Virus record (IMG/VR): IMGVR_UViG_3300035698_015276
Location: 1 to 21,305 of that record
Reading direction: 5' to 3' (one strand)
Length of the DNA: 21,305 nucleotides
Origin: a virus
The number at the start of each line of letters is the position of its first letter. The first letter of the stretch is position 1. Of this stretch, positions 3,338 through 21,305 are shown in pieces. The position numbers and the translations under genes are program-made. Below the pieces are notes generated by a model, which did no database searches, had not been told where the DNA came from, and worked only from the letters and a program-made list of their open reading frames with translations.

Positions 3338-3372
3338 AGTGTAGCATAAAAATAAAAATAAAACCTTGTCAA
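3338..3372 (-). promoter_or_regulatory. Promoter-like region of HNH copy 2 with long spacer
   Basis: On the minus strand TTGACA (3367-3372) and TACACT (3338-3343) are 23 bases apart, six more than in the homologous region of HNH copy 1. The extra length sits in a TTTTTATTTTTA run, consistent with slippage of one six-base unit. As it stands the spacing is poor for a sigma-70 type promoter. Confidence 0.5.
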
Positions 3373-3381
3373 TAGCAAATG

Positions 3382-4728
3382 CTAGGATGTTATGAAATTT
3401 AACCGACAACATATCGCCAAATAAGTAATGCCCTCCTCGATAGTGCATAGTTTTTCAACCTCTACCATATGACATAATGCTTCACCCATCTTCATAGTAT
3501 TAAACTCAATAGGGGATGGTAATAAGTTAGGTAAATTATACAAGTCAAACCATTTACCAAAGTCGTAGGTACTTTTATTTAAATTCGCCAAGTCAACTTT
3601 TGCATGTATTCTGTCATCAAGTAAACTCATAGGTATAAAAGAAGGGATTAATCTTATTCTTCTGCTTGTAATATTAAGCCCCAACCCTTGTCTTTTTTCA
3701 TAATCCTTTACACCTGCATACCATTGAAAGAACTGACCTAATCCACCTTCCGTACTATTAGTTTGGATACGTCCATACAACTCTTCCATCTTATATCCAT
3801 ACTCTCTAAGAAACTCCCCTGTTTTGTTTAATGAGCTTATTGTTTCTCCAGGAAAGAAGGATAATGTTAACCAGAATATATTAGCTTCAGTCTTTTTAAA
3901 TAAACCAGCCAATTCTATATACTTAGCTAATTTAACTTTACCCATATCTTTTGCAAGTTTTTCATCAGCTGTTTCAAATCCTACTTCTATTAATTTAAGA
4001 CCTGCTCTGTCTATTATATCGACTCCATACTCGTCTACAAATTTAAGCAAAGTACCTACATGAGCCATAGCTATGAGTTGAAAATCTACATCCGACTTCT
4101 CTATCCAACTCAGTATTGCATATGCTCTATGTTTATCCCAAAAGAAGTCCTCATCTGTAAAATGTATATTTGTAACTCCTTGCTCTACACAAGAATCAAA
4201 CATCATTTGAACATCTAACATATCGGGCCATATTCTATTTCTATTACAATTCACAGTTGAAGGGCAAAAGTTACAACCCATAGGACAACCATAACTTGTG
4301 CATAGAGGATACACTTGACCTTCATACTTAGATAAATGCATATCGCAATCGCTTAATAGTAGGTATTTAAAATCCTTGTAATACTTGGGATAATTAATAA
4401 TACCCTTCAAAATAGCGGTGTCTGGTACAATATATACAGGAAAATGAAACTCTTTAATAAGTGCATAATATCCGAAAAACTTTACATTACCTCTAAGGTA
4501 TCTTTTGAGTACTGTGCATATCTCTATTTGGGGCTCAGACCATAAAGCGATATAGTAATTATCTGCTTCAGGTAAATTGTCTATATCTGCCACTGTAAAG
4601 TTTTCAATCAGCTTTACCTTTTTATTGTTTGCTCTCATTGAGCTATACAGAATGTAAGGTAAATAACAGAAAGAACCCCTATTGAATTCCGTACTTGCTG
4701 GATCTATTATTACTGTATTATATTTCAT
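3382..4728 (-). CDS. Radical SAM enzyme, BchE/B12-type layout
   Basis: A 448-residue radical SAM protein. The iron-sulfur cluster motif CX3CX2C is at C148, C152 and C155 (YGCPMGCNFCPS). It is followed by FTDEDFFWDKHRAY, typical of the radical SAM proteins that carry an N-terminal cobalamin-binding-like domain. Residues 1-140 have the alternating strand-helix pattern of such a domain, but I see no clear DxHxxG cobalamin motif, so B12 use is doubtful. Such enzymes perform radical methylations, thiolations or rearrangements. It starts at ATG 4728 after AAGGAGAGAAA, as the last gene of the block containing FolE and the QueD-like protein. A role in modifying a 7-deazaguanine base is possible but inferred. 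The substrate cannot be read from the sequence. Confidence 0.85.
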   Translation of the reverse strand: MKYNTVIIDPASTEFNRGSFCYLPYILYSSMRANNKKVKLIENFTVADIDNLPEADNYYIALWSEPQIEICTVLKRYLRGNVKFFGYYALIKEFHFPVYIVPDTAILKGIINYPKYYKDFKYLLLSDCDMHLSKYEGQVYPLCTSYGCPMGCNFCPSTVNCNRNRIWPDMLDVQMMFDSCVEQGVTNIHFTDEDFFWDKHRAYAILSWIEKSDVDFQLIAMAHVGTLLKFVDEYGVDIIDRAGLKLIEVGFETADEKLAKDMGKVKLAKYIELAGLFKKTEANIFWLTLSFFPGETISSLNKTGEFLREYGYKMEELYGRIQTNSTEGGLGQFFQWYAGVKDYEKRQGLGLNITSRRIRLIPSFIPMSLLDDRIHAKVDLANLNKSTYDFGKWFDLYNLPNLLPSPIEFNTMKMGEALCHMVEVEKLCTIEEGITYLAICCRLNFITS

Positions 4729-4775
4729 TTTCTCTCCTTTCGAAACACCAAGCTTCCATAGTTTCTACTACTATT

Positions 4776-4877
4776 TTATTTCCACCACCACCATTCTTTT
4801 TGATGCTTTTTACAATAGTCTGACGAGTAATGTATACATTGATCACATGTGAAGAAATTATATATCAATGCACTCAT
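4776..4877 (-). CDS. 33-residue zinc-finger-like peptide with WWWWK end
   Basis: A very short gene reading MSALIYNFFTCDQCIHYSSD and then YCKKHQKEWWWWK. Cysteines 11, 14 and 22 and histidine 25 form a CX2C...CX2H zinc-binding pattern. The start ATG overlaps the TGA stop of the preceding gene in an ATGA arrangement, a strong sign of translational coupling and evidence that this TGA is a true stop. Four consecutive TGG codons close the peptide. It lies between the QueD-like gene and the radical SAM gene. Function unknown; a small accessory subunit is possible. Confidence 0.65.
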   Translation of the reverse strand: MSALIYNFFTCDQCIHYSSDYCKKHQKEWWWWK

Positions 4878-5236
4878 ATCTTAATCTCCTCTTCAAACAT
4901 TTCTGCACCATTCTCATTATCTTCCATCACCCTCACATAACTAGCATTAAAGAAAACTATAAAAGTTTTACAAATCATTTCACAACTTTCTTGTCCTATA
5001 TCTTTTCCTTCCCAAAAATCATGTATATATGCAGTGATATCGTTTTTCATATTAATGAACTCAATATCTCTATCTTCATGAGATACAGGAAATTTAAGTC
5101 TAAGATAAAATGTATGCCTATGCGGATTTTTTAGATAATTTACTTCTTTTATGGGGCATTTAGACCAACAATGTACGGCAGAAAAACTAGTGTTAATTAT
5201 GATATTCGTGGAACGATTAACGATTTTAGAGTTCAT
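4874..5236 (-). CDS. Divergent QueD/PTPS-like (T-fold) protein
   Basis: A 120-residue protein that I read as a distant relative of 6-pyruvoyl-tetrahydropterin synthase/QueD. The zinc triad appears conserved as H22 in FSAVH and H39/H41 in PHRHTF, matching FSxxH and HGH of true QueD. IEFINMK (residues 58-64) matches the [DE]Fxx[LM]K strand, SCEMI matches the TAEN region, and VRVMEDNENGAE matches the C-terminal Glu region. C27 lies before the HxH but not at the CxxxHGH spacing, so the chemistry may differ. The start has AGGAGACATTAAAT before ATG. It follows FolE by 25 bases, so its substrate could be the FolE product dihydroneopterin triphosphate or a later intermediate. A canonical QueD is encoded separately at 7197-7619. 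Confidence 0.6.
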   Translation of the reverse strand: MNSKIVNRSTNIIINTSFSAVHCWSKCPIKEVNYLKNPHRHTFYLRLKFPVSHEDRDIEFINMKNDITAYIHDFWEGKDIGQESCEMICKTFIVFFNASYVRVMEDNENGAEMFEEEIKI

Positions 5237-5261
5237 ATTTAATGTCTCCTAAAAATTAAAA

Positions 5262-5822
5262 TTAAAGCTTAATCATACTTAGGACTTTTTCTTCCAATAA
5301 ACTATTCGTTTTGAATATACCAGAAACAACTGAGGTTACCATATTAGAACTAGGTTGTTTTACTCCTCGTACAGCCATACAATTATGTGATGCTTTCATC
5401 AATATCATAGAACCTTTCGGCTTAATATTTTCATTAAAACAATTTATGATTTCATGGCACAGATTCTCTTGTATTTGTGGTCTTGCAGAGTAATGTTCTA
5501 TAACTCTTGCTAATTTAGAAACACCAACTAATTTCTTATCTGGTATATATGCTATATATGCAAAACCAGTAAAAGGAAGAAAGTGATGCGAACAAGTGGA
5601 TACAAAAGATACTTTATCCGCCATAATTATCTGGTCATAACCTTCTTTATTAGGGAAGTCTTTCCAGTCAGAGAATTCTTTACCTACGTTTTTAAAGAAT
5701 TCTCTGCAATACATTTTTGCAACTCTCTTGGGAGTTTCGGTTAAGTTGGGGTCATCCAAAGACAACCCCAACCCATCCTCAAGTAGAGTTTGCATAGCAA
5801 GTTCTACTAATTTTTCATTCAT
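5262..5822 (-). CDS. folE: GTP cyclohydrolase I
   Basis: A 186-residue GTP cyclohydrolase I, which opens GTP and rearranges it to 7,8-dihydroneopterin triphosphate, the first step of both folate and 7-deazaguanine synthesis. The zinc ligands are C77 and H80 in STCSHHFLPFTG and C148 in SHNCMAVRG. GVSKLARVIEHYSARPQIQE (residues 100-119) is the family signature. The length fits the bacterial enzyme (about 185-220). The start ATG at 5822 overlaps the TAA of the upstream gene (TAATG). In phages this gene with queD and queE feeds synthesis of modified guanine for DNA, or queuosine precursors. No folate genes are nearby, supporting the deazaguanine route. Confidence 0.97.
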   Translation of the reverse strand: MNEKLVELAMQTLLEDGLGLSLDDPNLTETPKRVAKMYCREFFKNVGKEFSDWKDFPNKEGYDQIIMADKVSFVSTCSHHFLPFTGFAYIAYIPDKKLVGVSKLARVIEHYSARPQIQENLCHEIINCFNENIKPKGSMILMKASHNCMAVRGVKQPSSNMVTSVVSGIFKTNSLLEEKVLSMIKL

Positions 5823-6394
5823 TATACTGTAGCTCCCTCCGCTACTTCTACTACAGAACCCTCTTTCTTGATCTTCTTTACAGCAATATTCACATAAATT
5901 ATTGATCTACTCTTAATAAATTCTGCTTCAGTCTTAGGTGGAGTCTTGGCCGCATACAATGGAGTGTAAAGAGCAATCGCCGCTGTGAGTATTTCTTCAG
6001 GAGTCTTACCTTCCATACCTTTAACAAGCTCATATGCTTTCATCTCAAAGTTAGGTCCACGTGGTTTAGGATCTTTCTTTGCTTTCTTAGCTTTGATTTC
6101 TGCTTGTTCCTCAGGTGAAGGATCTTTTCCTTCTACAATGGAATTATAAAAAAGAATACATGACTCAGGGATCTTCTTTTCGTCTTCACTACCTACTGCT
6201 ACAGAATCAATACCATCAAGGAACAGGTGATACAGTTCTTCTCTTGACTTACCAACGGACATAATCTTTTCTTTAATAACACCAGACTTATTAAGTGCGC
6301 CACACTGTTTTCTGAGTTCTTTGTTACTTACAAATTCTGGACTCAGTCCTTTTGTCTCTACTACTTCTTCAACTACTTTTTTTTCATCAGCCAT
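5822..6394 (-). CDS. Unknown 190-residue phage protein
   Basis: A soluble, highly charged protein. Residues 1-15 are rich in Glu, Lys and Val; the middle holds a Lys-rich linker KAKKAKKDPKPRGPNFEMKA (residues about 102-121); the C-terminal part has a helical YELVKGMEGKTPEEILTAAI segment. I recognise no catalytic motif. The start has AAAGGAGAAATCAAATG, with a promoter-like region just upstream (6452-6481). It is the first gene of the block leading to FolE, with TAATG overlap to folE, so it is made together with that enzyme. Function unknown. Confidence 0.75.
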   Translation of the reverse strand: MADEKKVVEEVVETKGLSPEFVSNKELRKQCGALNKSGVIKEKIMSVGKSREELYHLFLDGIDSVAVGSEDEKKIPESCILFYNSIVEGKDPSPEEQAEIKAKKAKKDPKPRGPNFEMKAYELVKGMEGKTPEEILTAAIALYTPLYAAKTPPKTEAEFIKSRSIIYVNIAVKKIKKEGSVVEVAEGATV

Positions 6395-6451
6395 TTGATT
6401 TCTCCTTTGTTGTTTTTCGACGATTGTTCGCCTTGTTTAACTGTATAATTT

Positions 6452-6481
6452 ATTATAACATATGTTCGACAATTATGTCCG
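6452..6481 (-). promoter_or_regulatory. Promoter-like region before the FolE block
   Basis: On the minus strand a perfect TATAAT (6452-6457) lies 18 bases after CGGACA (6476-6481). The sequence CGAACATATGTTAT overlaps the -10 box and matches one half and part of the other half of the Gram-positive LexA/DinR box CGAACN4GTTCG. A second CGAAC lies downstream near 6426-6430. The operator reading is weak. Confidence 0.4.
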
Positions 6482-6498
6482 ATATTTTTAAATTTTTA

Positions 6499-7200
6499 TT
6501 AACGCCTCCTTTCCGTTGACTTCCAAATATATTTATGTAACTGAGTGTTAAGATACAAGTTGTGTTTTTCACGGGAAGTTAATTCTAACATCCATTCTAT
6601 TAATCTTTTGGGTGTGACTTTCCCATACATAGCAGAGATACAAAATTTAGGGCGATTATTGTAGATATTACCCTCTTCCACCACATACTTCTTAATCTCC
6701 ATTGCTACATCAAATTCCTGTCTATTTTTAACCACACATTTAATATAATCTGTATTTGTTAGTGATTTTACAAAGTTCTTATTTCTAATATCCTTTTGTT
6801 TCAAGGAAAGTGTAGGTATAAACTTACAATCCATCACCCAACTACGAACTTTATTAATTACATCATCAGGTATAGGTATTGTGCCATTGGTTTCTACAGA
6901 TATATTATAATCATTATCCCAAAGTCTATTAACAAGGGATTTAAAACCACCCATCTGCATTAAAGGTTCCCCACCAGTAATAGTAACATTTTCATTACCA
7001 TATTCTTCTACTTTGGCCATTATTTCTTTCGGTATGTAGTTTACCCAATCATCTCCGTTCTTTGTACCCCAAGTAAACTTGCTATCGCAATAATCACATC
7101 GTAAATTACAACCCTGCATACGAATGAAAGTAGTGAGAGCTCCTTGACCATGTCCTGACATTTCACCCTCTATGCTTTGGTATATCTCATTTATTTTCAA
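6499..7200 (-). CDS. queE: 7-carboxy-7-deazaguanine synthase (radical SAM)
   Basis: QueE converts 6-carboxytetrahydropterin to 7-carboxy-7-deazaguanine. The radical SAM cluster motif CNLRCDYC (CX3CX2C, C31/C35/C38 with the start chosen here) follows EIYQSIEGE and a TTFIRMQG strand, and TGGEPL is the SAM-binding segment. I choose TTG at 7200 as start because AAGAAGGAG lies six bases before it and it gives LKINEIYQSIEGE, the usual QueE beginning. A GTG at 7221 would add seven residues but has no ribosome site. The TTG overlaps the queD stop by two bases. The length of 233 residues is within the family range. Confidence 0.95.
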   Translation of the reverse strand: MKINEIYQSIEGEMSGHGQGALTTFIRMQGCNLRCDYCDSKFTWGTKNGDDWVNYIPKEIMAKVEEYGNENVTITGGEPLMQMGGFKSLVNRLWDNDYNISVETNGTIPIPDDVINKVRSWVMDCKFIPTLSLKQKDIRNKNFVKSLTNTDYIKCVVKNRQEFDVAMEIKKYVVEEGNIYNNRPKFCISAMYGKVTPKRLIEWMLELTSREKHNLYLNTQLHKYIWKSTERRR

Positions 7201-7619
7201 TTTATTCTCCTTCTTGTACACCAGCTATCATCCGTTTCTGAAATTCTTATGCATTCCAAAGAATCTTCAAATTTGCCATATAGCTTCCACCATATTAAAT
7301 CCAGCATATTTTCAGCAGTAGGCATCGCTTTCATTGTTTGAACTTCTTTTTTAAATTTTGCACCGAAAGTAATATCCCCTATCTCATTTAAATATTTATG
7401 ATCTAATTTTTTAACTATCAAGTTATTTATAGTGCTCTTTAAATCTTTAAAGTCACATATCATTCCGTTTTTACATTTACTGCCATCCAAAGGTCTTGAT
7501 ACACTAACCTCCATTGTACAGTTGTGGCCATGATAATTAGCACAATTCCCATCATAGTCTGGTAGATGGTGTCCATATGAAAATTTAACTTGTTTGGTTA
7601 CTGTTGTTCTGTAGTTCAT
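7197..7619 (-). CDS. queD: 6-carboxytetrahydropterin synthase
   Basis: A 140-residue QueD, converting dihydroneopterin triphosphate to 6-carboxytetrahydropterin. The zinc ligands are H17 (FSYGH), H30 and H32 (YHGHN); the catalytic cysteine is C26 in CANYHGH. CDFKDLK (55-61), DHKYLNE (73-79), PTAEN (100-104) and ISETDDSW (126-133) are the remaining family signatures. It is followed by queE with overlapping stop and start. Its TGA stop is followed two codons later by TAA. It is transcribed from the 8.0 kb promoter together with the gene at 7629-7973. Confidence 0.96.
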   Translation of the reverse strand: MNYRTTVTKQVKFSYGHHLPDYDGNCANYHGHNCTMEVSVSRPLDGSKCKNGMICDFKDLKSTINNLIVKKLDHKYLNEIGDITFGAKFKKEVQTMKAMPTAENMLDLIWWKLYGKFEDSLECIRISETDDSWCTRRRIN

Positions 7620-7628
7620 TTTACCCCC

Positions 7629-7973
7629 TTATTTTTTGTTTTTCTTATTTACTGAACTGTCTTTCCAGTTTGTGTCTCCTGCTTCTTTACTTTCAGCAAA
7701 ACCACTACTGAAACCACCAAGAGGTAAATTAGCATTGAAACCACCTTTAGCTGACCTTCTAACCATAGCTTTTTCAACTCTTGAAGGGTTCTTAAATATC
7801 TCAATACAACTGCCCTTATTACACGAATCGCCAGACCCCTGCAATCCTAAAGTCCTGTTGACTCTTCTTTTTTTGTCTAACTGCATTCCACAAACATTAC
7901 ATTGTTCATACAGGCCATGGGGTTTATGTAAAGGGCTGTTTGGATTAAACTCTCTGTCACATTTACATAGCAT
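7629..7973 (-). CDS. Cys-rich basic protein of unknown function
   Basis: A 114-residue protein with an N-terminal zinc-ribbon-like set of cysteines (C3, C5, C25, C28 in MLCKC and EQCNVCGM). A basic stretch KKRRVNR, a second Cys pair (SCNKGSC) and a glycine-rich, low-complexity end (GGFNANLPLGGFSSGF) ending in KKNKK follow. It starts after AAGGAGACCAAAC and lies nine bases upstream of queD, so it is the first gene of the queD-queE operon. It may bind nucleic acid. It does not resemble QueC, the next enzyme of the pathway. Confidence 0.7.
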   Translation of the reverse strand: MLCKCDREFNPNSPLHKPHGLYEQCNVCGMQLDKKRRVNRTLGLQGSGDSCNKGSCIEIFKNPSRVEKAMVRRSAKGGFNANLPLGGFSSGFAESKEAGDTNWKDSSVNKKNKK

Positions 7974-8008
7974 GTTTGGTCTCCTTATTGTTAGCTGTTA
8001 TATTATAT

Positions 8009-8035
8009 ACTATAGTAAGACCATGGTCGTGTCAA
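8009..8035 (-). promoter_or_regulatory. Promoter of the queD-queE operon with palindromic spacer
   Basis: On the minus strand TTGACA (8030-8035) and TATAGT (8009-8014) are separated by 15 bases containing the perfect palindrome GACCATGGTC (8019-8028). An overlapping TAGTAT gives the more usual 17-base spacing. The palindrome is a likely operator. Confidence 0.75.
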
Positions 8036-8038
8036 GTA

Positions 8039-8473
8039 TTAAATATATTTGTACACTCTCTTTCTTTTAATTGCTCCAATACTCTGATTAACCATATTAT
8101 ATTTTTCTCCTAATTCATATGTGTTTAATTTAGATGTTCTTATATCTAAAACTTCTTCTTTTGTTAGCCTTCTTTTATGATAACTATTATGATCTCCTAA
8201 AGTCATAAATTCAAGATTACCCACTAAATTATTAAAACTATCTTCGTCTTTATGATGTACTAGACAACCCTTTGGTATAAGTCCTAAAAAAGCTTTTGCT
8301 ACAAGACGGTGAACTAAGTACTCCTTTCTAAAAAGAGTTACCCTCCAATATAAGTCCCTCCACCTACCGCCTTTTACAATTTTTCCTTTATTATTTTTAA
8401 TTCTACCTATACTACTTACTTTACACCCTTCACATTCAGGTATATCCCTCCATATCTCCCTTGCTTTCCTCAT
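8039..8473 (-). CDS. NUMOD4/HNH homing endonuclease, copy 3
   Basis: A 144-residue HNH endonuclease with a NUMOD4-like start (EIWRDIPECEGCKVSSIGRI, residues 6-25), an intact HNH core HHKDEDSFNNLVGNLEFMT (73-91) and a C-terminal helix-turn-helix ELGEKYNMVNQSIGAIKRKR (120-139). Unlike copies 1 and 2 it has no promoter of its own: it begins three bases after the DnaB-like helicase stop, with GAGG eight bases before the ATG, so it rides on the replication operon. This is the least similar of the three copies. Confidence 0.9.
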   Translation of the reverse strand: MRKAREIWRDIPECEGCKVSSIGRIKNNKGKIVKGGRWRDLYWRVTLFRKEYLVHRLVAKAFLGLIPKGCLVHHKDEDSFNNLVGNLEFMTLGDHNSYHKRRLTKEEVLDIRTSKLNTYELGEKYNMVNQSIGAIKRKRVYKYI

Positions 8474-8476
8474 AAT

Positions 8477-10003
8477 CTATTCCTCTGATTTATCAAATAA
8501 TAATTCACCATCCAAATAAGCTTGACCTGCTTTTAACTGTTGCAAGATTTCTGCCTGTATAAATTCATCTGACATTTTGTGACGGTGTGCAATAATACCT
8601 ACTCTCATTATTCCCATACGTTTTTCAAGTGGGGTTTGATTAAGTACTGGCATCACGTCCACATGTGCTATTTTTCTAATATCTTCCCCTGTGTTAGTCT
8701 GTCTAACATTCTTACTTTCAATAGATGCTCTATTTGATTGTGTAGCTGTAACAACCAGGCATTTTCTCTTTTGTGCCATACTTTTGAGACCCATCCAAGT
8801 TTCATTGGTAGCCTCTCTACCTGTAAGTCTACTATCTTCAGTTCCTAAAATATCTGCATAATCTATTATAACTACATCAGGAATCCAATTCTCAGAATAT
8901 TCTAATAAATCTAAATCCCTTTTAATATCTTTCATATTAGCAGATTTCATAGGGTAAGCTTTAATTCTTAATAAATTAGAGCTATACATCATTTGATAAT
9001 CCTTCACATCATCAATAACTCCCTTTGTTGAAATTTCTTCTGTATCGTGTGTTTCATACCAAACAGCAACATCATATTCTTTAGGTTCTTTCTCCCTACA
9101 TTTTGTACACACCGTATACTCTAAATCTTCATCATACTGAGGTACATCACCATGCTCATCTACAAGTGTGACATGATTAGTTCTTCTTTCTTTTTCACAT
9201 TCCCCTGTCTGATTTCTTTTACAGTCAAAGACAGGAAATATTACTTTACCACCTTCATCTGTAAATCCTGTTAATCTTTTATACCCCCTAGTACTTAAAT
9301 CCTCATCTTGCATTTCAAGAGTTATCATTACTACTTTTAATCCTGCTTGCATAGCATGAAACATTATCTCTTGTAAGTAAAAAGTCTTACCTCTTTTCAT
9401 TGGACCCATTAAAGCTATTAACCATTCTCGTTTCAAAGGTCCCATTAATTGTCCTAAAACTCCGCTCATTTTAAATAGATAATTTTGGTCTTTATTCAAT
9501 GCTTTCTTAATGTACTCTTCATCAAAAGGATTTACCCATTGAGAAGTTGCTTTTGCTATCTCCCTATAATTTGCTATTTCTTGTTCCGCTTCCTCAATTT
9601 CACCCATAGACAATAACGACGATATCTTGTCTGTATGAAAAGTCAAGCCTTTATGCTTTAAAAAATTAATCGTCTGGTCTAGCACGTACTCCTCGTTGAT
9701 ATTAGCTAACTCGTCATAGTTTTCAGACAAGTTTGTCAAATATTTTTGTAATAGCGAGGTTACTTCTGGTTTTAATTTTATTGCTTTAGCTAAGAATATA
9801 TTTTCAATATCTTTACCTGGTGCTTTACCATATCTATCAAAATATTCTCTAACCCAATTTACAATTATTTTAGAGTACTCTATTTGTAAAAATTCTGGTT
9901 TGACTATAGGTAAAATATCTCTACAGAAGGTATCTGAAGTAATGAGACCGGTGAGCATGTTCTTTTCATTATGTGATTCTACATGTTTTCTTTTAATTTC
10001 CAT
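8477..10003 (-). CDS. DnaB-like replicative helicase with zinc-binding insert
   Basis: A 508-residue RecA-fold helicase that would unwind DNA at the phage fork. An N-terminal helical DnaB-type domain (about 1-150) is followed by Walker A GPMKRGKT (200-207), then ITLEMQDEDLSTR (about 227-239), Walker B VVIIDYAD (377-384) and TATQSNR. Between Walker A and B there is an insert with C261, C269, C299 and C302 that could bind zinc; I believe similar inserts occur in other phage DnaB-like proteins. The start ATG overlaps the upstream gene by 11 bases. It lies in one operon with the primase and a winged-helix protein, as in many phage replication modules. Confidence 0.92.
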   Translation of the reverse strand: MEIKRKHVESHNEKNMLTGLITSDTFCRDILPIVKPEFLQIEYSKIIVNWVREYFDRYGKAPGKDIENIFLAKAIKLKPEVTSLLQKYLTNLSENYDELANINEEYVLDQTINFLKHKGLTFHTDKISSLLSMGEIEEAEQEIANYREIAKATSQWVNPFDEEYIKKALNKDQNYLFKMSGVLGQLMGPLKREWLIALMGPMKRGKTFYLQEIMFHAMQAGLKVVMITLEMQDEDLSTRGYKRLTGFTDEGGKVIFPVFDCKRNQTGECEKERRTNHVTLVDEHGDVPQYDEDLEYTVCTKCREKEPKEYDVAVWYETHDTEEISTKGVIDDVKDYQMMYSSNLLRIKAYPMKSANMKDIKRDLDLLEYSENWIPDVVIIDYADILGTEDSRLTGREATNETWMGLKSMAQKRKCLVVTATQSNRASIESKNVRQTNTGEDIRKIAHVDVMPVLNQTPLEKRMGIMRVGIIAHRHKMSDEFIQAEILQQLKAGQAYLDGELLFDKSEE

Positions 10004-10247
10004 CTTTCTCCTTATCCATTAAATGTATTGTCCAAGCAAACCACATTATATTACATTGAGCCCAACCTATAAAATCCCAATCTAAACATTCCTTCCCTGT
10101 ATCTTTATGCATTTGATCAATAACCATAGATAAAAACATACCTATACAGTTTGAACATATCCATCTTCCACTGTTTGCATCATAAAATTGTTTTGTTGTT
10201 CCTACCTCCCATTCCTTATTTTTACAATAGCAACATTCTTTATCCAT
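9993..10247 (-). CDS. Small zinc-ribbon protein
   Basis: An 84-residue protein with two CX2C pairs (C5/C8 in CCYC and C31/C34 in ICSNC), then helical segments rich in Trp and Met (WAQCNIMWFAWTIHLM). The ATG at 10247 is chosen because AAGGAG lies six bases before it; an ATG further upstream at 10295 would run into the end of the previous gene and has no ribosome site. It overlaps the DnaB-like start by 11 bases. The position between a replisome protein and the helicase suggests a replication accessory role, but this is inference only. Confidence 0.75.
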   Translation of the reverse strand: MDKECCYCKNKEWEVGTTKQFYDANSGRWICSNCIGMFLSMVIDQMHKDTGKECLDWDFIGWAQCNIMWFAWTIHLMDKEKDGN

Positions 10248-10257
10248 ATCTTTCTCC

Positions 10258-11553
10258 TTAAATATGTATTGGTAGTTTTTCTTTCTTAATATCAATCATC
10301 AATGCTCCTTGTTTATTAAGATGTGCTGGTAATCTTCTATTAAATGTTATATCTGAACAGAACCATCCTGGACTTACTTGACTAATATCATTACAATCTG
10401 CTTGTATTGCTTCACATATTACTCTAGCAAATGCTTTTAATGAGCTTCCTCCTGTTACTGAACTTCTCATCTTTCTCTTGTTTTTAGTATAAAATTCAAA
10501 ACATTTTTCACTTGCCTCCATAAATTTAATTTTTTCTTGCCAAGAAAATTCACCAGGGTCTATTCCACCTAAAACTTTATTAATATAAAATCTAGTAAAT
10601 ACTCTTGTTACCTCTTTATGTTTATCATATAATGTTTTATCTAAAAATCTAACAAACTCACTTTTAAAAGGGTTGTAATTGTTATAAAGAAACTCTGACA
10701 ATATACATTTTTTTAATCTAAATATATCATTATTTGTTAATTTATATTTTCTGGGATTTTTTAATGCAAGATGAAAGTTATCTAAAGTTTTAAGTATTTC
10801 ATCAAGAGTATACGTTTTTACAAAATTCTTTAATTTTACATCCTTTTTAAATAAATTACCTGATTTAAGTTTCTTGATATAATCTATTGTAATGCGATAT
10901 ACATTAGTATCTCTGATATAAAATTTTCTAATCTCTTTACAAGAATTCCATTTATTTATTATTTCTTGTTCACATTTAGTAGGTATAGGTACATTTATTT
11001 TTCCATAATCTATTTTTGTGTCTGACAATGGAGTAGGTACATATTTTACTAATCTACTTTTTCTTGTTGTACATACAGATTTAACCGCCGTTATGCTTTT
11101 AACTTCCCTAGGTTGTCTTTTTAATGTATTACCTTCCTCCTTGTTAAGTCTCTTTAGCTTATGAAAAAAGGATATAGGACTAGGACAAATACATATACTG
11201 CTACGCAGTAGTAGTATTATGTCATTTGGACTAGGACTATTATACCCTGCTACTTTTTTTTCTACAGCACTTGTTGGAGAGTCGATAAAAGCAGACGGTG
11301 TAAGCTCAATGGTTATTATTGAGTCAATAGGATCAGAAATTTTAATATACCCCTTGCTAGATAAAAGTCTTGTGCTTTCCATAAAAGCACTTTGTTCAAA
11401 CCAATTACGTTTTACAAAAATTAAGGGATTACATTTTAAAATTCCTTCTTCATTTGCACGACCAATAATAAAAAGTAATGTTCTAATATCATGTGCAGTA
11501 AATTCTAAGTCTGTTGTAAGTGAATGAGGAACGAGTAAGAGTTTCTTTTTCAT
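10258..11553 (-). CDS. Winged-helix protein, possible replisome organiser/helicase loader
   Basis: A 431-residue basic protein. Residues 1-85 look like a winged helix (LTTDLEFTAHDIRTLLFIIG, then STRLLSSKGYIKI and a beta wing). A low-complexity linker (about 100-180) separates it from a long, Lys/Phe-rich helical domain to the C-terminus. Its place between the primase and the DnaB-like helicase is where phages commonly encode a replication initiator or helicase loader, but I see no ATPase motif and no clear DnaD or RepO signature. The linker DNA carries direct and inverted repeats (11177-11237) reminiscent of an origin inside an initiator gene. The ribosome site is AAAAGGATTTTTATG. Confidence in the role is low. 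Confidence 0.7.
   Translation of the reverse strand: MKKKLLLVPHSLTTDLEFTAHDIRTLLFIIGRANEEGILKCNPLIFVKRNWFEQSAFMESTRLLSSKGYIKISDPIDSIITIELTPSAFIDSPTSAVEKKVAGYNSPSPNDIILLLRSSICICPSPISFFHKLKRLNKEEGNTLKRQPREVKSITAVKSVCTTRKSRLVKYVPTPLSDTKIDYGKINVPIPTKCEQEIINKWNSCKEIRKFYIRDTNVYRITIDYIKKLKSGNLFKKDVKLKNFVKTYTLDEILKTLDNFHLALKNPRKYKLTNNDIFRLKKCILSEFLYNNYNPFKSEFVRFLDKTLYDKHKEVTRVFTRFYINKVLGGIDPGEFSWQEKIKFMEASEKCFEFYTKNKRKMRSSVTGGSSLKAFARVICEAIQADCNDISQVSPGWFCSDITFNRRLPAHLNKQGALMIDIKKEKLPIHI
11177..11237. repeat. Direct plus inverted repeats inside the putative initiator gene
   Basis: GGACTAGGAC occurs at 11177-11186 and again at 11228-11237, 51 bases apart. Between them is the inverted repeat TACTGC-TAC-GCAGTA (about 11196-11210). 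The cluster lies in the linker-coding part of the winged-helix gene. It could be a replication origin, as in lambda where the origin lies inside gene O, or a chance result of low-complexity coding. Confidence 0.5.
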
Positions 11554-11592: not shown

Positions 11593-12522
11593 TTATTCAG
11601 CAATATCATCAAAAATTTCTGAGATAAGTTTATTTGCTGTACTTTCCTCTAATGATGCAGGATCCCCTTCAGGTAATTCTAAAATTTCAACATGTGGTAT
11701 CAAAGAGGATAAAATATAGGCCATTTTGTTTGCTTGTCTTTGAGCATGTTTCTCCGTATCAAATAGAATGTATGCTTCCTTGAGTTCTTTACTAGCTAAA
11801 ATGTCTATCTGTTTATGTGAAAATTCTGAGGTTAGGGGGGAAATACAACCATCCCCCATCCTCCAAACATCCGTAGGACCCTCAACAATGAGAACTTTAG
11901 ATTTTACTGTATCTATGTTGTACCACCACTCTTTGTGGTCTGTGAGGCTTTCTTCGAATTTACATTTCTTATACCTTGTTTCATTTTTACCTGTATAGTC
12001 TCTACCTGTAAATCCTACTATTACCCCTTCAGTAATTACTGGTATTATTATTCTAAATTTATACTTCCCCATATTATAAGTACAGTACAAATCGTATTTA
12101 GGAATAATAATCTCTGGATCGAACCTTCTACTTTTTATATATTCTAAAGCAAGTTGATGAAAATCTTTACTTGCTTCTTTACATAGTGGACTGCCAGATA
12201 CTTTTAATTTCCTTTCTTCTTTCCTGTTTAAAAAGTAAGGGTCTTGGTATTCTTTAAGCCTGTCACACGCTTCACCATAAGAAATTTGTTCAATTTCTTT
12301 AATCAAGAGTGTGACAGGGCCAGATTTATGACATTTCCAGCATTTAAAAAGTTTAGAGTGTAAATTAATACCTAAATGATTACTTGTATCATCACAATCA
12401 GGAAATACACACTCTATACCTATCCAACCTTCCGAAATATTTTTACCTTCCTCATATATATTTACACCTTGATCTTCGAGGTAAGCAATAATATCAAAAA
12501 GTTGAAGATCAATCTTGTTCAT
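11593..12522 (-). CDS. DNA primase, CHC2 zinc finger plus Toprim
   Basis: A 309-residue DnaG-type primase, shorter than the bacterial enzyme as is common in phages. The zinc-binding domain has C38, C43, C61 and C64 (ECVFPDC and FKCWKCHKSG). The Toprim domain has VLIVEGPTD with catalytic E213, ILFDTEKHA with D254/E256 in place of the usual DxD, and LPEGDPAS. It would make RNA primers for lagging-strand synthesis together with the DnaB-like helicase at 8477-10003. The C-terminal helicase-binding domain of bacterial DnaG is absent. The start overlaps the upstream HTH gene by 14 bases. Confidence 0.93.
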   Translation of the reverse strand: MNKIDLQLFDIIAYLEDQGVNIYEEGKNISEGWIGIECVFPDCDDTSNHLGINLHSKLFKCWKCHKSGPVTLLIKEIEQISYGEACDRLKEYQDPYFLNRKEERKLKVSGSPLCKEASKDFHQLALEYIKSRRFDPEIIIPKYDLYCTYNMGKYKFRIIIPVITEGVIVGFTGRDYTGKNETRYKKCKFEESLTDHKEWWYNIDTVKSKVLIVEGPTDVWRMGDGCISPLTSEFSHKQIDILASKELKEAYILFDTEKHAQRQANKMAYILSSLIPHVEILELPEGDPASLEESTANKLISEIFDDIAE

Positions 12523-15091: not shown

Positions 15092-15187
15092 TTACCTTCT
15101 AGGTCCTCTTCCACCACCACATGGACCTTGACCTCTACCTGTACCTGCCCCTTGACCTCTTGGGCCTGTACCATCTCCTCTTGGCAT
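15092..15187 (-). CDS. 31-residue Gly/Arg-rich mini-protein, DUF5320-like start
   Basis: A tiny gene reading MPRGDGTGPRGQGAGTG, continuing with Arg, Gly, Gln, one Cys and ending GGGRGPRR. The MPRGDGTGPxGxGxxTGRG pattern is that of the start of DUF5320-type proteins of anaerobes, which are normally longer with a helical tail; here only the head is present. Support is the ribosome site AAAGGAG seven bases before the ATG, its own promoter (15228-15256) and a hairpin after the stop. The GC-rich codons stand out from the AT-rich surroundings. Possible roles are RNA or DNA binding through RGG-like repeats. Function unknown. Confidence 0.7.
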   Translation of the reverse strand: MPRGDGTGPRGQGAGTGRGQGPCGGGRGPRR

Positions 15188-15227
15188 AATAAATCTCCTT
15201 TCTTCTTTAGGATTAATAGATAAATAT

Positions 15228-15256
15228 AGTATAGCATAAACCCATTTGTTATGCAA
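15228..15256 (-). promoter_or_regulatory. Promoter of the mini-protein/helicase operon
   Basis: On the minus strand TTGCAT (15251-15256) is 17 bases from TATACT (15228-15233). The GTTTATGC before the -10 box resembles the HNH copy 1 promoter. Confidence 0.6.
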
Positions 15257-15267: not shown

Positions 15268-16086
15268 TTATCTGTAAATATTGTTACGGAAAGCACTCTC
15301 CAGTTGTACTCTACGTGTTTCCTTCTTGATATTATGGGTTAAGAATTGTGTTACGATATTAAAAAAGACCCATCGAGTAATAATTATTTGCGTAGTTTCT
15401 GTAAATGTTAACCAGTCTACCAATTTAAGATTACTACTAACCTCCCTTGTATTGATTAATTCCTCTTTCTCTTTATTATTGAGTTTCATATTTTTGATTA
15501 CTTCATTAACAAATTTTTGTTCCTCAACCACATTATTCCATTCTGTCCATTGAGTAGCTTGTTCTGTCATTGTTTCAAGCCCTCCTTCCACAGCGTATTT
15601 AACATCTTCAAGGTAGAGGCTTGGTGAGTGTTTTTTCTTGAATGTTAAAAAGTTTTCTCCTACTACTATACCATTTTCACATATCATCCTATATGCACCA
15701 ATCATCACAGTATGTCTCCAAGATAAGTCATAACTATTAAAAACCTCAATAGTTGGAGAAATAAGGTCTTTATTATTTCCAATAGGTATTTCTACATCAA
15801 GAAATTTATATGTAGCTCTTAGTTTTGCCCCTTCTTTATCTGTACTAATAGCTTTTGTCCAATTACCATATTTATTAGATTTAAATATGACTTCCTCAAC
15901 ATTGTTCATTACTTCCTCATGTGTAACCAGTTTGTATTTATCTGAGGCTATTCCAAACACATGATTTGTTATAGGATTAATAATTGCTTTATGACCAGGT
16001 ATTTTATGTTTTGTTCCATCTTTTTCAAAGAGTGCTGGAACAGTTGTAACTTCTGGTAAAGGTGCTATTCTTTTCCTTAAACTCAT
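15268..16086 (-). CDS. DUF932 (phage/plasmid-like) protein
   Basis: A 272-residue protein of the DUF932 family, common in phages and plasmids and of unknown biochemical role. Family features are KAIINPITNHVFGIASDKYK with VTHEEVMNNVEEV (about 33-66), KLRATYKF, a central ISPTIEVFNSYDLSWRHTV (109-127) and AYRMICENGIVVGE (about 131-144). The C-terminal third is helical with a charged KNMKLNNKEKEELINT segment. The start overlaps the stop of the upstream broken small gene in an ATGA arrangement. It is transcribed from the tandem promoters at 16.26-16.34 kb. An early, abundantly expressed gene in similar phages would fit, but this is inference. Confidence 0.88.
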   Translation of the reverse strand: MSLRKRIAPLPEVTTVPALFEKDGTKHKIPGHKAIINPITNHVFGIASDKYKLVTHEEVMNNVEEVIFKSNKYGNWTKAISTDKEGAKLRATYKFLDVEIPIGNNKDLISPTIEVFNSYDLSWRHTVMIGAYRMICENGIVVGENFLTFKKKHSPSLYLEDVKYAVEGGLETMTEQATQWTEWNNVVEEQKFVNEVIKNMKLNNKEKEELINTREVSSNLKLVDWLTFTETTQIIITRWVFFNIVTQFLTHNIKKETRRVQLESAFRNNIYR

Positions 16087-16201
16087 TTCTTTTTCCCCTT
16101 TTTAATAAATAAATGTTCAAGATCTTTAGGTATTGTTATCGAAAAACTGAAAAATTTTCCTATTACCTTTAATAAATTATCTTTTCTTAAAGTAAAGTCA
16201 T
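16083..16201 (-). pseudogene. Small gene interrupted by a one-base frameshift
   Basis: AAGGAGACCAAACTATG gives an ideal start at 16201, but the frame reads only Met-Thr-Leu-Leu before TAA. The -1 frame is open for 38 codons (DFTLRKDNLLKVIGKFF and onward to KKGKKK), and its TGA overlaps the DUF932 start in an ATGA arrangement typical of real gene pairs here. Adding one T to the CTTTAA run would join start and body as MTLLLRKDNLLKVIG. So this is either a recent frameshift, an assembly error in a T-run, or a frameshifting site. I see no canonical slippery heptamer. The product would be basic, about 39 residues, of unknown function. Confidence 0.55.
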
Positions 16202-16255
16202 AGTTTGGTCTCCTTGTTTTGTTAACAGTTATTTGTATTTTTTCATTATGTAACA

Positions 16256-17488: not shown

Positions 17489-17537
17489 GTAGTTAAGAAA
17501 GTAAACAAGTAAGAATATAAAGTACAGGAGAAAAGAC

Positions 17538-17720
17538 ATGAATGAAACAATAATGGAAAAAGCGGGTTTTGGTAAAGAAGTAGCAAGAGTAAGAAAAGGT
17601 TTATGCCCAATATGTTGTACAGATGTATGGCAGGAGGAGTTCAGAGATGCATTGAGTATAAAAGAGTTTGGTATTTCTGGTATGTGTCAGAAATGTCAGG
17701 ATAAGATATTTGGTAAATAA
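17538..17720 (+). CDS. Small zinc-ribbon phage protein
   Basis: A 60-residue protein with two CX2C pairs: C23/C26 in GLCPICCTDV and C50/C53 in GMCQKCQDKIFGK. Between them WQEEFRDALSIKEFGISG is a pattern I recall from small proteins of Gram-positive phages (EFRDELSxKEFxISGxCQxCQD). It likely folds around one zinc and binds protein or nucleic acid. The ribosome site is ACAGGAGAAAAGACATG, and it has its own promoter. A good terminator follows at 17741-17786, so it is a single-gene unit. Confidence 0.85.
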   Translation: MNETIMEKAGFGKEVARVRKGLCPICCTDVWQEEFRDALSIKEFGISGMCQKCQDKIFGK

Positions 17721-17740
17721 AAAGAATTAGTAGTAACGGT

Positions 17741-17786
17741 AAAGGGTTCGTATACTCCTATTTGCGAGCCCTTTATTTTTTTATTT
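17741..17786 (+). terminator. Rho-independent terminator
   Basis: AAAGGGTTCG (17741-17750) pairs with CGAGCCCTTT (17765-17774) with one G-T pair, and ATTTTTTTATTT follows. It ends the 17538-17720 transcript. In reverse it is followed by a mixed A/T sequence, so it may act weakly on the minus strand as well. Confidence 0.85.
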
Positions 17787-17815
17787 TCTGACCCAAATCA
17801 TACCATAATATAGCC

Positions 17816-17842
17816 AAAAAGAATGGCAGTTTCGACACTACC
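17816..17842 (-). terminator. Short terminator for the leftward SprT unit
   Basis: On the minus strand GGTAGT and ACTGCC form a six-pair stem with a GTCGAA loop, followed by ATTCTTTTT. It lies ten bases after the stop of the gene at 17852-18013. Together with the terminator at 17741-17786 it separates converging transcripts. Confidence 0.55.
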
Positions 17843-17851
17843 ATATCTTTA

Positions 17852-18013
17852 TTATGCGTATACTTTATCCTTTATGTAGAAACCTACCAATACATTAGCA
17901 CATCCTTTTCTTTGTTTGTGATCTCTTGCTATTGATTCAGCAAAGTCACTGTTGGCTAAACGATCTATTTCTCCACACTCTGTACAGTACACAACCCATA
18001 TTATTTTTTCCAT
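17852..18013 (-). CDS. 53-residue zinc-finger-like protein
   Basis: A short protein starting MEKIIWVVYCTECGEIDRL and ending VGFYIKDKVYA. C10 and C13 (YCTECG) with H32 and C38 (DHKQRKGC) make a plausible single zinc site. AGAGGACAGAAATT precedes the ATG at 18013, and the gene follows the SprT-like stop by 14 bases, with a short terminator after its own stop. It is therefore very likely the last gene of the SprT unit. Function unknown. Confidence 0.72.
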   Translation of the reverse strand: MEKIIWVVYCTECGEIDRLANSDFAESIARDHKQRKGCANVLVGFYIKDKVYA

Positions 18014-18027
18014 AATTTCTGTCCTCT

Positions 18028-18675
18028 TTAAGGATAAGTAATTTTTTCCCTACATTGATTTAATGATACATTACAACATTTTGTGTGCTTATTCATTTTA
18101 GGACGTCTGTAAAATCTTGCTACATGTGCTCCACAAGTACAGTAGTAATCGTATGTTGTTCTTTTTCTTTCTGGGATATTAGACTTGAGTGCCGCTTCTG
18201 CAAATTCATAACCCGCCATCGACTCTTTCATTGAACCGCCAAGCTCAGCACATAGCTTTTTAAAGTTCCAACTATGTCCACTTTCTTGATTATGTACGAG
18301 TTGATATAAATGACAGAACTCATGAATAAGTGACTTTCTGAACTGTTGATAACCATCATATGTGAAATGTTTCCAAGAGAAGCCAATATCTTTAATTTGA
18401 AAATCTCTTAATGCACCTTTTGTATATATTTTTCCGTGTGAAACACCAAATCTAATATTGTAAGTCCAACGTATTGATGCGAGTGTGTGCTGTGCATTCT
18501 GACTTAACCAGCGTAACATGGGGTTAATTAATTTATTCTCAGAGTCCTTAATATCAAACTCTTCACATAATTCTTCTAATTCCTCCCTGAGATACATCAT
18601 GGCATCTTCACCATTTGCAACTTTGTCGTCTGGGAGACTTTCCCAATGCTCTCTTTCCCATGCTTTGTAAGACAT
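18028..18675 (-). CDS. SprT-like zinc metalloprotease
   Basis: A 215-residue SprT-family protein, related to SPRTN, which cuts proteins crosslinked to DNA. The active site is HEFCH (118-122) with the third ligand H134 in SGHSWNF, spaced as in the family. A C-terminal zinc ribbon has C179, C181, C200/C201 and C208. The ATG at 18675 is chosen because GAGG lies nine bases before it and it follows the stop of the upstream small ORF by one base; ATGs up to 18762 lack ribosome sites. The phage may use it on protein-DNA crosslinks or host proteins. Catalytic residues appear intact. Confidence 0.9.
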   Translation of the reverse strand: MSYKAWEREHWESLPDDKVANGEDAMMYLREELEELCEEFDIKDSENKLINPMLRWLSQNAQHTLASIRWTYNIRFGVSHGKIYTKGALRDFQIKDIGFSWKHFTYDGYQQFRKSLIHEFCHLYQLVHNQESGHSWNFKKLCAELGGSMKESMAGYEFAEAALKSNIPERKRTTYDYYCTCGAHVARFYRRPKMNKHTKCCNVSLNQCREKITYP

Positions 18676-18676: not shown

Positions 18677-18889
18677 TTATATTTCCTCATTGAATTTAAG
18701 TAACTCTGTCTTTGTTGGTTCAAATGTAACATTGAAACTCTCATAACATGAGTCACAATCAAACCTCACACACATATTGTCTATTTCTCAGTTAAATGCG
18801 TCATCCAAAGTTTCTGGATAGTTTAAACTCACGTTTGCACTTTTGCATCAATACGTTGGGCATACTATTTTGGTTTCTACTTTTTTTAT
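18677..18889 (-). pseudogene. Zinc-ribbon gene with two in-frame TGA codons and an ATA start
   Basis: One frame reads KKVETKIVCPTY-TGA-CKSANVSLNYPETLDDAFN-TGA-EIDNMCVRFDCDSC and on to LLKFNEEI, ending in TAA two bases before the SprT-like start. With the TGAs (18848-18850 and 18788-18790) read as Trp it is a convincing 70-residue protein with CX4C and CX2C zinc pairs. The expected start is ATA (18887-18889), eight bases after AGAAG. The same leader AATAATCAAATAG before the gene at 19334 continues GAGATCATT-ATG. A G-to-A change at each of four places (ribosome site, start and two TGG codons) would explain everything. The last 32 residues could still be made from ATG 18775, which has only a weak ribosome site. 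Decay is more likely than recoding, because TGA is a normal stop elsewhere here. Confidence 0.6.
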
Positions 18890-18911
18890 AACTTGGTCTT
18901 CTATTTGATTA

Positions 18912-19334
18912 TTATTTAAGAGTAAATAACTTAAACTTGATATTTTGTCTATCCAGTATCTGTATAACTTTCATTCTATACATTGATTTTTCATTATATT
19001 TTAAATAATCTACATATGTGTCATCAGAAATATTTTCAAACTCAGCAATATTGGTCCATACATCATGACACTCATTACCCTCATTTTTTATGTCATCCAT
19101 AACGTCATTTGTGAGTATGTCTGAGTCAATGTCATATGGTGAAAACAACAACTCTACATAACCATGATCGTCATTATTACTCTTTAAAATTATGAACCAA
19201 TTACCCTCATCTGCTAAACTAATATCTTTGGTTCTATACCATAACTTTGTGTAATCGCCAATCTCAATACAAAGTACATCTGACTTTATTATCTCTAACA
19301 ATAAGTTGGGTATGTCTAATTTTTCATGTTTCAT
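18912..19334 (-). CDS. Unknown acidic phage protein
   Basis: A 140-residue acidic protein with no recognised motif. It has LWYRTKDISLADEGNWFIIL (about residues 31-50), suggesting an alpha-beta domain, and an Asp/Asn-rich middle (SNNDDHGYVELLF). The start ATG 19334 is clear: AATCAAATAGGAGATCATT precedes it. It follows the zinc-ribbon gene at 19355-19573 by 20 bases and precedes the broken gene at 18677-18889 by 22 bases, so all appear to be in one leftward unit from the 19.65 kb promoter. Confidence 0.75.
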   Translation of the reverse strand: MKHEKLDIPNLLLEIIKSDVLCIEIGDYTKLWYRTKDISLADEGNWFIILKSNNDDHGYVELLFSPYDIDSDILTNDVMDDIKNEGNECHDVWTNIAEFENISDDTYVDYLKYNEKSMYRMKVIQILDRQNIKFKLFTLK

Positions 19335-19354: not shown

Positions 19355-19573
19355 TTATAGTTTGATTCCTAAAATGTCGTCTATTGTGAACGCTTGTTTA
19401 AGATTTTCTACAAGTATTTCTGGTTTATATTTCATCTTTTCTACACGACACTCTGTACAATGTCTGGTTTCTATTATGTCTTTGTCTTGGTCAATTTCTT
19501 GAATTTGTTTAAAAATTGTATGATGAATACACTCATTACATCCATAAAGTATATAAGTTTTTGGTTGTTTCAT
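19355..19573 (-). CDS. Small zinc-ribbon protein
   Basis: A 72-residue protein with CX2C pairs C12/C15 (YGCNECIHH) and C39/C42 (RHCTECR), a typical zinc ribbon, followed by a helical C-terminal half. The ATG at 19573 is chosen for its strong ribosome site AAAGGAGGTCACT; an ATG at 19651 would start inside the promoter. It is the first gene of a leftward unit that also includes the genes down to 17852. Function unknown. Confidence 0.78.
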   Translation of the reverse strand: MKQPKTYILYGCNECIHHTIFKQIQEIDQDKDIIETRHCTECRVEKMKYKPEILVENLKQAFTIDDILGIKL

Positions 19574-19624
19574 AGTGACCTCCTTTGAATAATGTTTGTT
19601 TTTCTTGTTTGTCATAATATATAT

Positions 19625-19651
19625 AATATAGTACGACCATGGTTCTGTCAA
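19625..19651 (-). promoter_or_regulatory. Leftward promoter with near-palindromic spacer
   Basis: On the minus strand TTGACA (19646-19651) and TATATT (19625-19630) are separated by 15 bases with AACCATGGTC, one base away from the GACCATGGTC palindrome. Confidence 0.75.
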
Positions 19652-19812: not shown

Positions 19813-20124
19813 ATGACTGACCAATTAAGTATTAATAAAGATGAAGAGACATACAAATTTGTACCAATGACTGAAATGACAGATAAATTATTTGAAAGAT
19901 GTGGTGGCTGGGTAAGTAAGAAATTGTTTCATGACGAGTTGGGTTACAATTTTGAAGAGTTAGAGCATTGTACTTACCCAGTATGTAAAAGTGAGTTTGA
20001 TGACGAAACAAAGTTTGATGCATTAAATAGTGATCTAGAGAAAAACACTTTGTTCATATGTGGTTCACCCAAGTCAAGACTATATATGGTAACAGTAAGT
20101 GAATTTTTTAAAGAAATAAGTTAA
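19813..20124 (+). CDS. Unknown acidic phage protein
   Basis: A 103-residue acidic soluble protein with FVPMTEMTDKLFERCGGWVS (16-35) and a middle rich in Glu and Asp (GYNFEELEHCTYPVCKSEFD). Three cysteines in the centre do not form a clear zinc site. AATAGGAGAGCAAC precedes the ATG. The gene has its own promoter and a tandem-repeat leader, and is followed by an unusually strong 18-bp hairpin. No family recognised. Confidence 0.75.
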   Translation: MTDQLSINKDEETYKFVPMTEMTDKLFERCGGWVSKKLFHDELGYNFEELEHCTYPVCKSEFDDETKFDALNSDLEKNTLFICGSPKSRLYMVTVSEFFKEIS

Positions 20125-20130
20125 TAATAG

Positions 20131-20181
20131 TTGGGAAGAGCAAGCACTTTAATCAGATACTTTAGTGCTTGCTCTTCCCAA
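20131..20181 (+). other. 18-bp perfect hairpin between two genes
   Basis: TTGGGAAGAGCAAGCACT (20131-20148) pairs perfectly with the complement at 20164-20181 around a 15-base loop. It begins seven bases after a stop codon and ends 24 bases before the next start. There is no T-run, so it is not a classical terminator. Possible roles are an RNase III site, mRNA end protection, or control of the next gene. Confidence 0.85.
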
Positions 20182-20204
20182 CAAATCTTAAATGGGAAAT
20201 AAAA

Positions 20205-20432: not shown

Positions 20433-20566
20433 AATCAATGTCAGATGTAGAACAGATAGAGCAATAATTTCTCAACAACAAATAAGAGATATAAATAACA
20501 GAAACAATCAGAACAACAAAGAAATTTCTGACCAAAATTTCTCAAGAAAATTTCTGACGGGTGATA

Positions 20567-20740
20567 CTAAGAATAAACAGAATAAAAACCAGACAAAGGT
20601 ATAAATGAAGAGATAAGAATAACTGATAATATCACACCAATAACTAATAGAAGGAGAAATAAACAGATAAAATAAAAAATTAGAAGAGTCATAGACAAAG
20701 AAATAAAGAACAGAGCAACGAACAACATATCAAATAACAT
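20567..20740 (-). CDS. Possible small membrane protein (doubtful)
   Basis: A 57-residue minus-strand frame from ATG 20740, very hydrophobic: MLFDMLFVALFFISLS followed by runs of Leu, Ile, Phe and Val, enough for two membrane spans. There is no ribosome site. The frame stays open well upstream, through LSTLIILATIGLTYILKVYP and KGALQEQGISKF, back to ATG-TGA-TGA near 20923. The full frame would only be a gene if two TGA codons were read through. Because the plus strand here is A-rich, the minus strand is bound to give hydrophobic codons, so chance is a real explanation. A holin-like or other small membrane protein is possible. Confidence 0.2.
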   Translation of the reverse strand: MLFDMLFVALFFISLSMTLLIFYFICLFLLLLVIGVILSVILISSFIPLSGFYSVYS

Positions 20741-20860
20741 ACTAAACTTTGATATACCTTGTTCTTGTAGTGCTCCCTTGGGATATACTTTTAGTATATA
20801 AGTAAGTCCTATAGTTGCGAGTATTATTAGAGTAGATAATGTGTATACCTTTTTTGTGTT

Positions 20861-20931
20861 GATGAAGTGGTGTGATGGTGGTGTGATGGTGGTGGTGAAT
20901 TGACGACCGCTTCATCACATACTTTTTTTTT
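20861..20931 (+). terminator. Terminator-like hairpin and T-run
   Basis: GATGAAGTGGT (20861-20871) pairs with ACCGCTTCATC (20906-20916) with one G-T pair. The 34-base loop carries two copies of GGTGTGATGGT, and nine T residues follow at 20923-20931. The loop is long and the T-run starts six bases after the stem, so efficiency is uncertain. A second short stem, GGTCTT/AAGACC, lies at 20932-20948. Confidence 0.45.
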
Positions 20932-21153
20932 GGTCTTTTTCTAAGACCACACCACCCAAGACCTAGGGATGGAATGGCTGACACAGATTTGATACGGAAC
21001 GATTTGATAAAGGAACTGGTGGTATCTTACTTTAAGTTTTTACCCTAACCAAATCTGACCACACCAAGACCTGCGACCTGTGAACTGTCAGAGCTATTTT
21101 GTATGAGCTTATGAGCAGGTTAGAACAGGTGAGGACAGGTGGTGAATACCCTG

Positions 21154-21229
21154 CTCAGCCCAGCCCAAGACGAAAAATAAAAAATTTTCATCTCAGCCCA
21201 GCCCAAGACGAAAAATAAAAAATTTTCAT
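21154..21229. repeat. Two perfect 38-bp tandem repeats
   Basis: Positions 21154-21191 and 21192-21229 are identical: each has a C-rich head (CTCAGCCCAGCCCAAGACG) and an A/T tail ending AAATTTTCAT. The contrast with the AT-rich surroundings and the position near the window end suggest a specific function (origin, packaging or terminus site) or a recent duplication. Confidence 0.92.
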
Positions 21230-21305
21230 TATTGTTTAGTATTAGTTATTATTACTATGTAGTTTATAACATTAGTTATATTTTATAACTATTATATTTT
21301 ATAAC

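Follow-up and report, generated by a model that had tools for sequence, protein, structure and literature searches.

A small phage frame interrupted by two TGA codons is probably the pseudogene of a putative metal-binding protein

Introduction

Pseudogenes of bacteria and phages, examples of which are covered by a prokaryote survey (PMC522871) and by a study of Salmonella (PMC2916853), show premature stops, a lost start codon or ribosome-binding site, normal neighbours and a position in a variable accessory region. Stop codons inside phage genes are also known from stop-reassigned phages, which use code 4 (TGA = Trp), code 25 or code 15 (PMC11210395, PMC10746230). Translation can furthermore start at AUA, which in Staphylococcus has about 10–30% of the efficiency of AUG when combined with a strong extended Shine-Dalgarno sequence (PMC13009471).

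The DNA analysed here, called the window, is a stretch of 21,305 nt (positions 1 to 21,305 of the IMG/VR virus record IMGVR_UViG_3300035698_015276). A sequence-only reading had described a zinc-ribbon gene at 18677–18889 for a natural-looking protein with paired cysteines, disabled at four places (two in-frame TGA codons, ATA for ATG and AGAAG for AGGAG), and had offered two explanations: a young pseudogene with a directional G-to-A mutation pattern, or decoding of TGA as Trp in some condition. The locus is like the pseudogenes above in its premature stops, its lost start and ribosome-binding site, its normal neighbours and its variable surroundings; it differs in that no intact parent gene was found, so that only its composition and its leader identify it. 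An in-frame TGA in a phage gene is what it shares with the stop-reassigned phages, but here one small frame is affected, TGA is still a stop elsewhere, and no suppressor tRNA was found in 25 kb. The small phage zinc-ribbon proteins of the CxxC...CxxC type, two of which are encoded in the window (genes 17538 and 19355), resemble the product of the disrupted frame in size, charge and a C-terminal CxxC with a beta-like stretch after it, whereas its N-terminal knuckle has no CxxC and it has no family match.

Results and Discussion

Read from 18889 to 18677 on the minus strand, the frame runs over 70 codons from ATA to TAA and gives IKKVETKIVCPTY, TGA, CKSANVSLNYPETLDDAFN, TGA, EIDNMCVRFDCDSCYESFNVTFEPTKTELLKFNEEI and the final TAA. 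It is supported by translation through TGA, by the sequence and by a codon score in the range of real genes. There are exactly two internal stops, both TGA, at codon 14 (18848–18850) and codon 34 (18788–18790), and together with the ATA at the start this is the frame as it had been described. The cysteines agree with the description in part. The C-terminal C45/C48 are a true pair and the sole CxxC of the frame; the first metal knuckle is C10-P-T-Y-stop-C15 (CPTY-TGA-C), which is not CxxC, so the frame lacks the two CxxC knuckles of a zinc ribbon. As the first knuckle deviates in this way a missense lesion is likely, and one metal ligand of the ancestral protein has probably been lost. It is thus doubtful that missense decay is absent between the TGA codons; CxxC pairs are present in the other small cysteine proteins of the window (ORFs at 17538 and 19355). 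The best-preserved part is a 32-codon stretch from an internal ATG (18677–18775, minus strand; MCVRFDCDSCYESFNVTFEPTKTELLKFNEEI), with one CxxC pair. An AlphaFold2 single-sequence model of the read-through protein was uninformative (mean pLDDT 41, pTM 0.18), and the best PHROG match of this protein was weak (E=0.31). The site is covered by a single assembled contig.

Upstream of the frame there is a leader, AATAATCAAATAGAAG (18898–18913, minus strand), which was identified by pattern search and assessed by anti-Shine-Dalgarno duplex energies. It has one mismatch to AATAATCAAATAGGAG, which precedes the working gene at 19334; the sequence-only reading had noticed this match, and a further copy precedes the gene at 19813. 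The pattern AATAATCAAATAG[G/A]AG is present in three copies within 1 kb at up to two mismatches, as compared to 0.05 expected, in a pattern search of the window, and the two other copies sit before these intact genes at 19334 and 19813. The AGAAG, which had been taken as damage, does weaken the Shine-Dalgarno interaction: the duplex at the ATA, with -1.0 kcal/mol, is weaker than in each of the 34 genes (-1.5 to -12.6 kcal/mol).

The neighbouring genes lie on the same strand. An intact 72-aa gene with two CxxC pairs is the first in the operon (19355–19573, minus strand) and is followed by an intact 140-aa gene with an undamaged leader (18912–19334, minus strand), both taken from the list of open reading frames; the 140-aa protein had no family match in PHROGs or NCBIfam. 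Downstream of the disrupted frame there is a gene of the SprT-like metalloprotease family (18028–18675, minus strand; Pfam SprT-like, E=3.4e-8), the ATG of which has a good Shine-Dalgarno sequence (-6.3 kcal/mol) located within the end of the disrupted frame. A promoter-like TTGACA-17-TATTAT at 19623–19651 on the minus strand, matching the consensus in 11 of 12 positions, is a candidate operon promoter from a consensus scan alone. The gap between the stop of the 140-aa gene and the ATG of the SprT-like gene is 236 nt, compared to a median gap of 25 nt in the window. An RNA element was rejected as an explanation of this gap, as there was no Rfam match and no conserved structure (folding z = -0.45).

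No homolog of the 70-residue frame was found in IMG/VR, INPHARED phages, GTDB genomes, PHROGs, Pfam, NCBIfam or 47 kin records, by searches of limited reach with exact 8-mers and with tblastn using the 70-aa query; the intact protein, which the sequence-only reading had advised to look for, did not appear in any of them. An 8-mer scan of viral contigs with the read-through protein, together with two motif patterns, gave chance matches only. Two weak matches to the same protein were discounted, one lying opposite a coding frame (G003) and the other having 24% identity inside a 564-codon frame (G032). Searches of viral contigs, phages and genomes gave no relatives of the SprT-like protein, and its match in G002 covers 19 residues within an ORF that is nuclease-like. 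Around the site in the 21.3-kb virus record there was no DNA match to a named phage.

Kin phages were found by a scan with a primase alignment. The best 80 loci come from a large uncultured lineage with contigs of up to 274 kb, which has DnaB-like helicase, UvsW-type helicase, primase, DUF932 and FolE genes in common with the window, and the DnaB-like helicases are up to 48% identical over nearly their full length. The 47 kin records that were searched whole (sets of 7 and 40, one record in both) contained no credible homologs of the 70-residue frame or of the SprT-like protein, and the small neighbour gene at 17538–17720 was found in four kin loci. Since the frame and the SprT-like gene were not detected in kin that share the replication genes, the region appears to be variable; the 18–20 kb region is probably accessory DNA, in which genes would be expected to be gained and lost. 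A sibling contig (L002/L014) is 99.94% identical to the window and extends the phage sequence by 3.7 kb. It spans window positions 8–10271 only and therefore gives no population variants at the site. In another relative, L020, both the helicase (8441–9055 and 10001–10813) and DnaB (15628–16254 and 17524–18411) are split, interrupted by roughly 0.9–1.3 kb of extra DNA, suggesting inteins or introns.

The best reading of 18677–18889, to which we give a probability of about 0.72, is a pseudogene whose product was small and probably bound metal. The basis for this is the frame, its lesions, the leader match and the gene-like codon usage. It agrees with the disabled small gene of the sequence-only reading. 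The ancestor would have been a translated gene of about 70 residues, probably binding metal and presumably zinc, and would have been third in a minus-strand accessory operon, after the genes at 19573 and 19334 and before the SprT-like gene. Its start would have been at the position of the ATA, and the TGA codons would have replaced sense codons. After the function was lost, drift may have led to the damaged ribosome-binding site, the lack of a usable start, the two stops and probably the loss of one metal ligand. Transcription presumably runs on into the SprT-like gene, for which a separate ribosome-binding site is present. As no intact homolog was found in the searched collections, the former function has to be deduced from composition and leader. 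The pseudogene reading has points against it: four disabling changes with near-normal composition elsewhere are odd for random decay, the coding signal is weak before the second TGA, and the site is seen in one contig. As a pseudogene, the locus matters little beyond illustrating gene turnover in this accessory operon, in a lineage of uncultured phages.

An explanation without any gene can be that the sequence is non-coding or composite and that the frame is coincidental, or a spill-over from neighbouring composition. Frames were scored by codon usage, with the genes of the phage itself as reference. The mean score of the whole frame, 0.146 per codon, is attained by 74% of true in-frame windows. 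Wrong-frame windows of real genes attain it in only 1.9% of cases on the same strand and in 0% on the antisense strand. In first-order Markov sequence, the p for 70 codons in a row without TAA or TAG is about 0.03; when TGA is limited to at most two as well, it is about 0.013. The failure to find a homolog in any searched collection and the weak signal in the first half fit a coincidental frame, and the codon score is also high in the A-rich non-coding DNA at 20433–21305, despite its many stops. Because the score climbs in such DNA, the frame contrast is the better guide, and in the best 40-codon windows it is large, 0.233 as compared to 0.01 and -0.021. The copy of the leader directly upstream of the first codon also argues against coincidence, and we find it quite unlikely that there never was a gene. 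A former gene is moderately favoured over chance by the codon usage, the lack of TAA and TAG, the common leader and the fit to the operon gap, lines of evidence that are partly dependent on one another. The signal is unevenly distributed. After the second TGA the score is at the 54th percentile of real genes and is attained by 0.9% of wrong frames, while in the first 99 nt it is at the 14th percentile and is attained by 7.5%. The combination of a coding-like frame and disabling lesions, typical of a pseudogene, is therefore clear after the second TGA and weak before it. It is conceivable that the well-preserved part is itself a functional gene of 32 codons from the ATG at 18775, and that the part upstream is either a leader without coding function or what is left of a longer ancestor. 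The strong coding signal is found solely in the 32-codon part, which has an ATG and no stop before the TAA. However, this ATG has a weak Shine-Dalgarno of -2.7 kcal/mol, which is matched by 36% of random ATGs and bettered by 97% of real genes; moreover one CxxC is left and the operon leader is misplaced for this start. Such a short gene is unlikely.

A gene that is still translated, with TGA read as Trp by suppression or by a near-cognate host tRNA-Trp and ATA as a weak start, would agree with both internal stops being TGA, with the existence of AUA starts, and with a kin phage, represented by two contigs, that has a TGA at a conserved Trp in the zinc knuckle of its primase. The use of TGA in the rest of the phage speaks against it. 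TGA terminates 7 of the 34 genes, three of which would have another 21 to 144 codons to the next TAA or TAG; all 92 Trp codons in the phage genes are TGG, and none of the other window genes has an internal TGA. No tRNA gene, and hence no suppressor tRNA-Trp(TCA), was found in the window and the sibling contig, 25 kb of an incomplete genome. The AUA starts described in PMC13009471 depend on a strong extended Shine-Dalgarno and the one here is the weakest of all, and TGA decoding leaves the damage to the start and the ribosome-binding site unexplained. Across kin loci, the stops that interrupt conserved frames make up 6 TGA, 6 TAA and 5 TAG rows, some of them from duplicate records, and thus there is no lineage-wide TGA excess. 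With seven genes ending in TGA and no other gene interrupted by it, the phage does not behave as a TGA-recoded phage with code 4, and code 25 (TGA = Gly) fails on the same grounds. The conditional decoding put forward in the sequence-only reading is accordingly disfavoured and unlikely, its proposed checks having turned up no suppressor tRNA in the 25 kb and no other window gene with in-frame TGA. Nothing testable in our analysis backs translation through the stops, and the locus looks like an ordinary dead gene. If TGA were decoded here, it would be a case of gene-specific stop-codon use in an otherwise standard-code phage, and would be missed by code-prediction tools that rely on coding density. 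A directional G-to-A (template C-to-T) process, for example deaminase attack, can be credited with hardly any likelihood. The four proposed lesions can be written as one change on one strand, but this pattern is partly or largely built in, because any TGA can be derived from TGG, and any ATA from ATG, by a single change. The G content of the frame is 19.2%, as compared to 20.9 ± 2.7% in phage genes, and the A content 0.404, as compared to 0.394 ± 0.029, which is neither the G depletion nor the A excess of G-to-A hypermutation. As the G content is normal, a region-wide process is not supported. With a G loss of 8%, which places the ancestor at the mean, the probability that at least 4 out of about 7 critical Gs, chosen post hoc, are hit is 0.001; a loss of 30% gives 0.13, but implies an ancestor that is 2.4 sd too G-rich. 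The window and the sibling contig have three clear differences over 10 kb, which are mixed transitions.

The kin primase is a better candidate than 18677–18889 for TGA read-through, or alternatively for a primase without its zinc domain. It is a homolog of the window primase at 11593–12522, and has TGA at codon 63 in L146 (7854–8747, TGA at 8010) as well as in L148 (TGA at 8297). These contigs have different metagenome ids, are 99.98% identical over 16 kb and represent one kin phage. Codon 63 is the Trp position of a C-W-x-C zinc knuckle, where 75 of 81 aligned hits have Trp. A strong Shine-Dalgarno (-8.8 kcal/mol) precedes the full-length start, and the next in-frame ATG has none (0.1). The terminator also seems to be TGA (codon 308), and tRNA-Asn was the only tRNA gene found in the contig. 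That a few zinc-knuckle proteins of the lineage are deliberately kept under TGA(Trp) control, to be expressed only when the host tRNA-Trp reads UGA, with the disrupted frame and the kin primase as two instances, seems highly improbable.

Some other features of the window were observed. A tandem repeat at 69–203 with 6-nt and 12-nt steps (CTTGACCWTGAC...) encodes an alternating V-K/V-R/V-M string and is flanked by a perfect 32-nt direct repeat at 3–34 and 191–222; near it, at 15–17, the sibling contig L002 differs from the window, possibly at an assembly edge. At 20121–20191 a 28-nt inverted repeat, 89% complementary and with a 15-nt loop, overlaps the stop of the gene at 19813–20124 and has no T-run. 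A perfect 38-nt tandem duplication (21154–21229) lies near the contig end, inside the repeat-rich non-coding 20433–21305. The short ORF at 15092–15256 on the minus strand contains MPRGDGTGPRGQGAGTGRGQGPCGGGRGPRR and has a very high codon score; a 30-residue piece of it had no NCBIfam match, and MPRGDGTGPRGQGAGTGRGQGPCGGGRGPRR may resemble the DUF5320-type MPRGDGTGP proteins of anaerobes. Judged by eye, the genes at 1660, 2828 and 8039 look like homing endonucleases. On the minus strand at 5262–7619, FolE (PHROG GTP cyclohydrolase) is found beside genes that by eye are QueE-like and QueD-like. Together they probably form a preQ0/7-deazaguanine cluster, homologs of which occur in about 22 kin loci.
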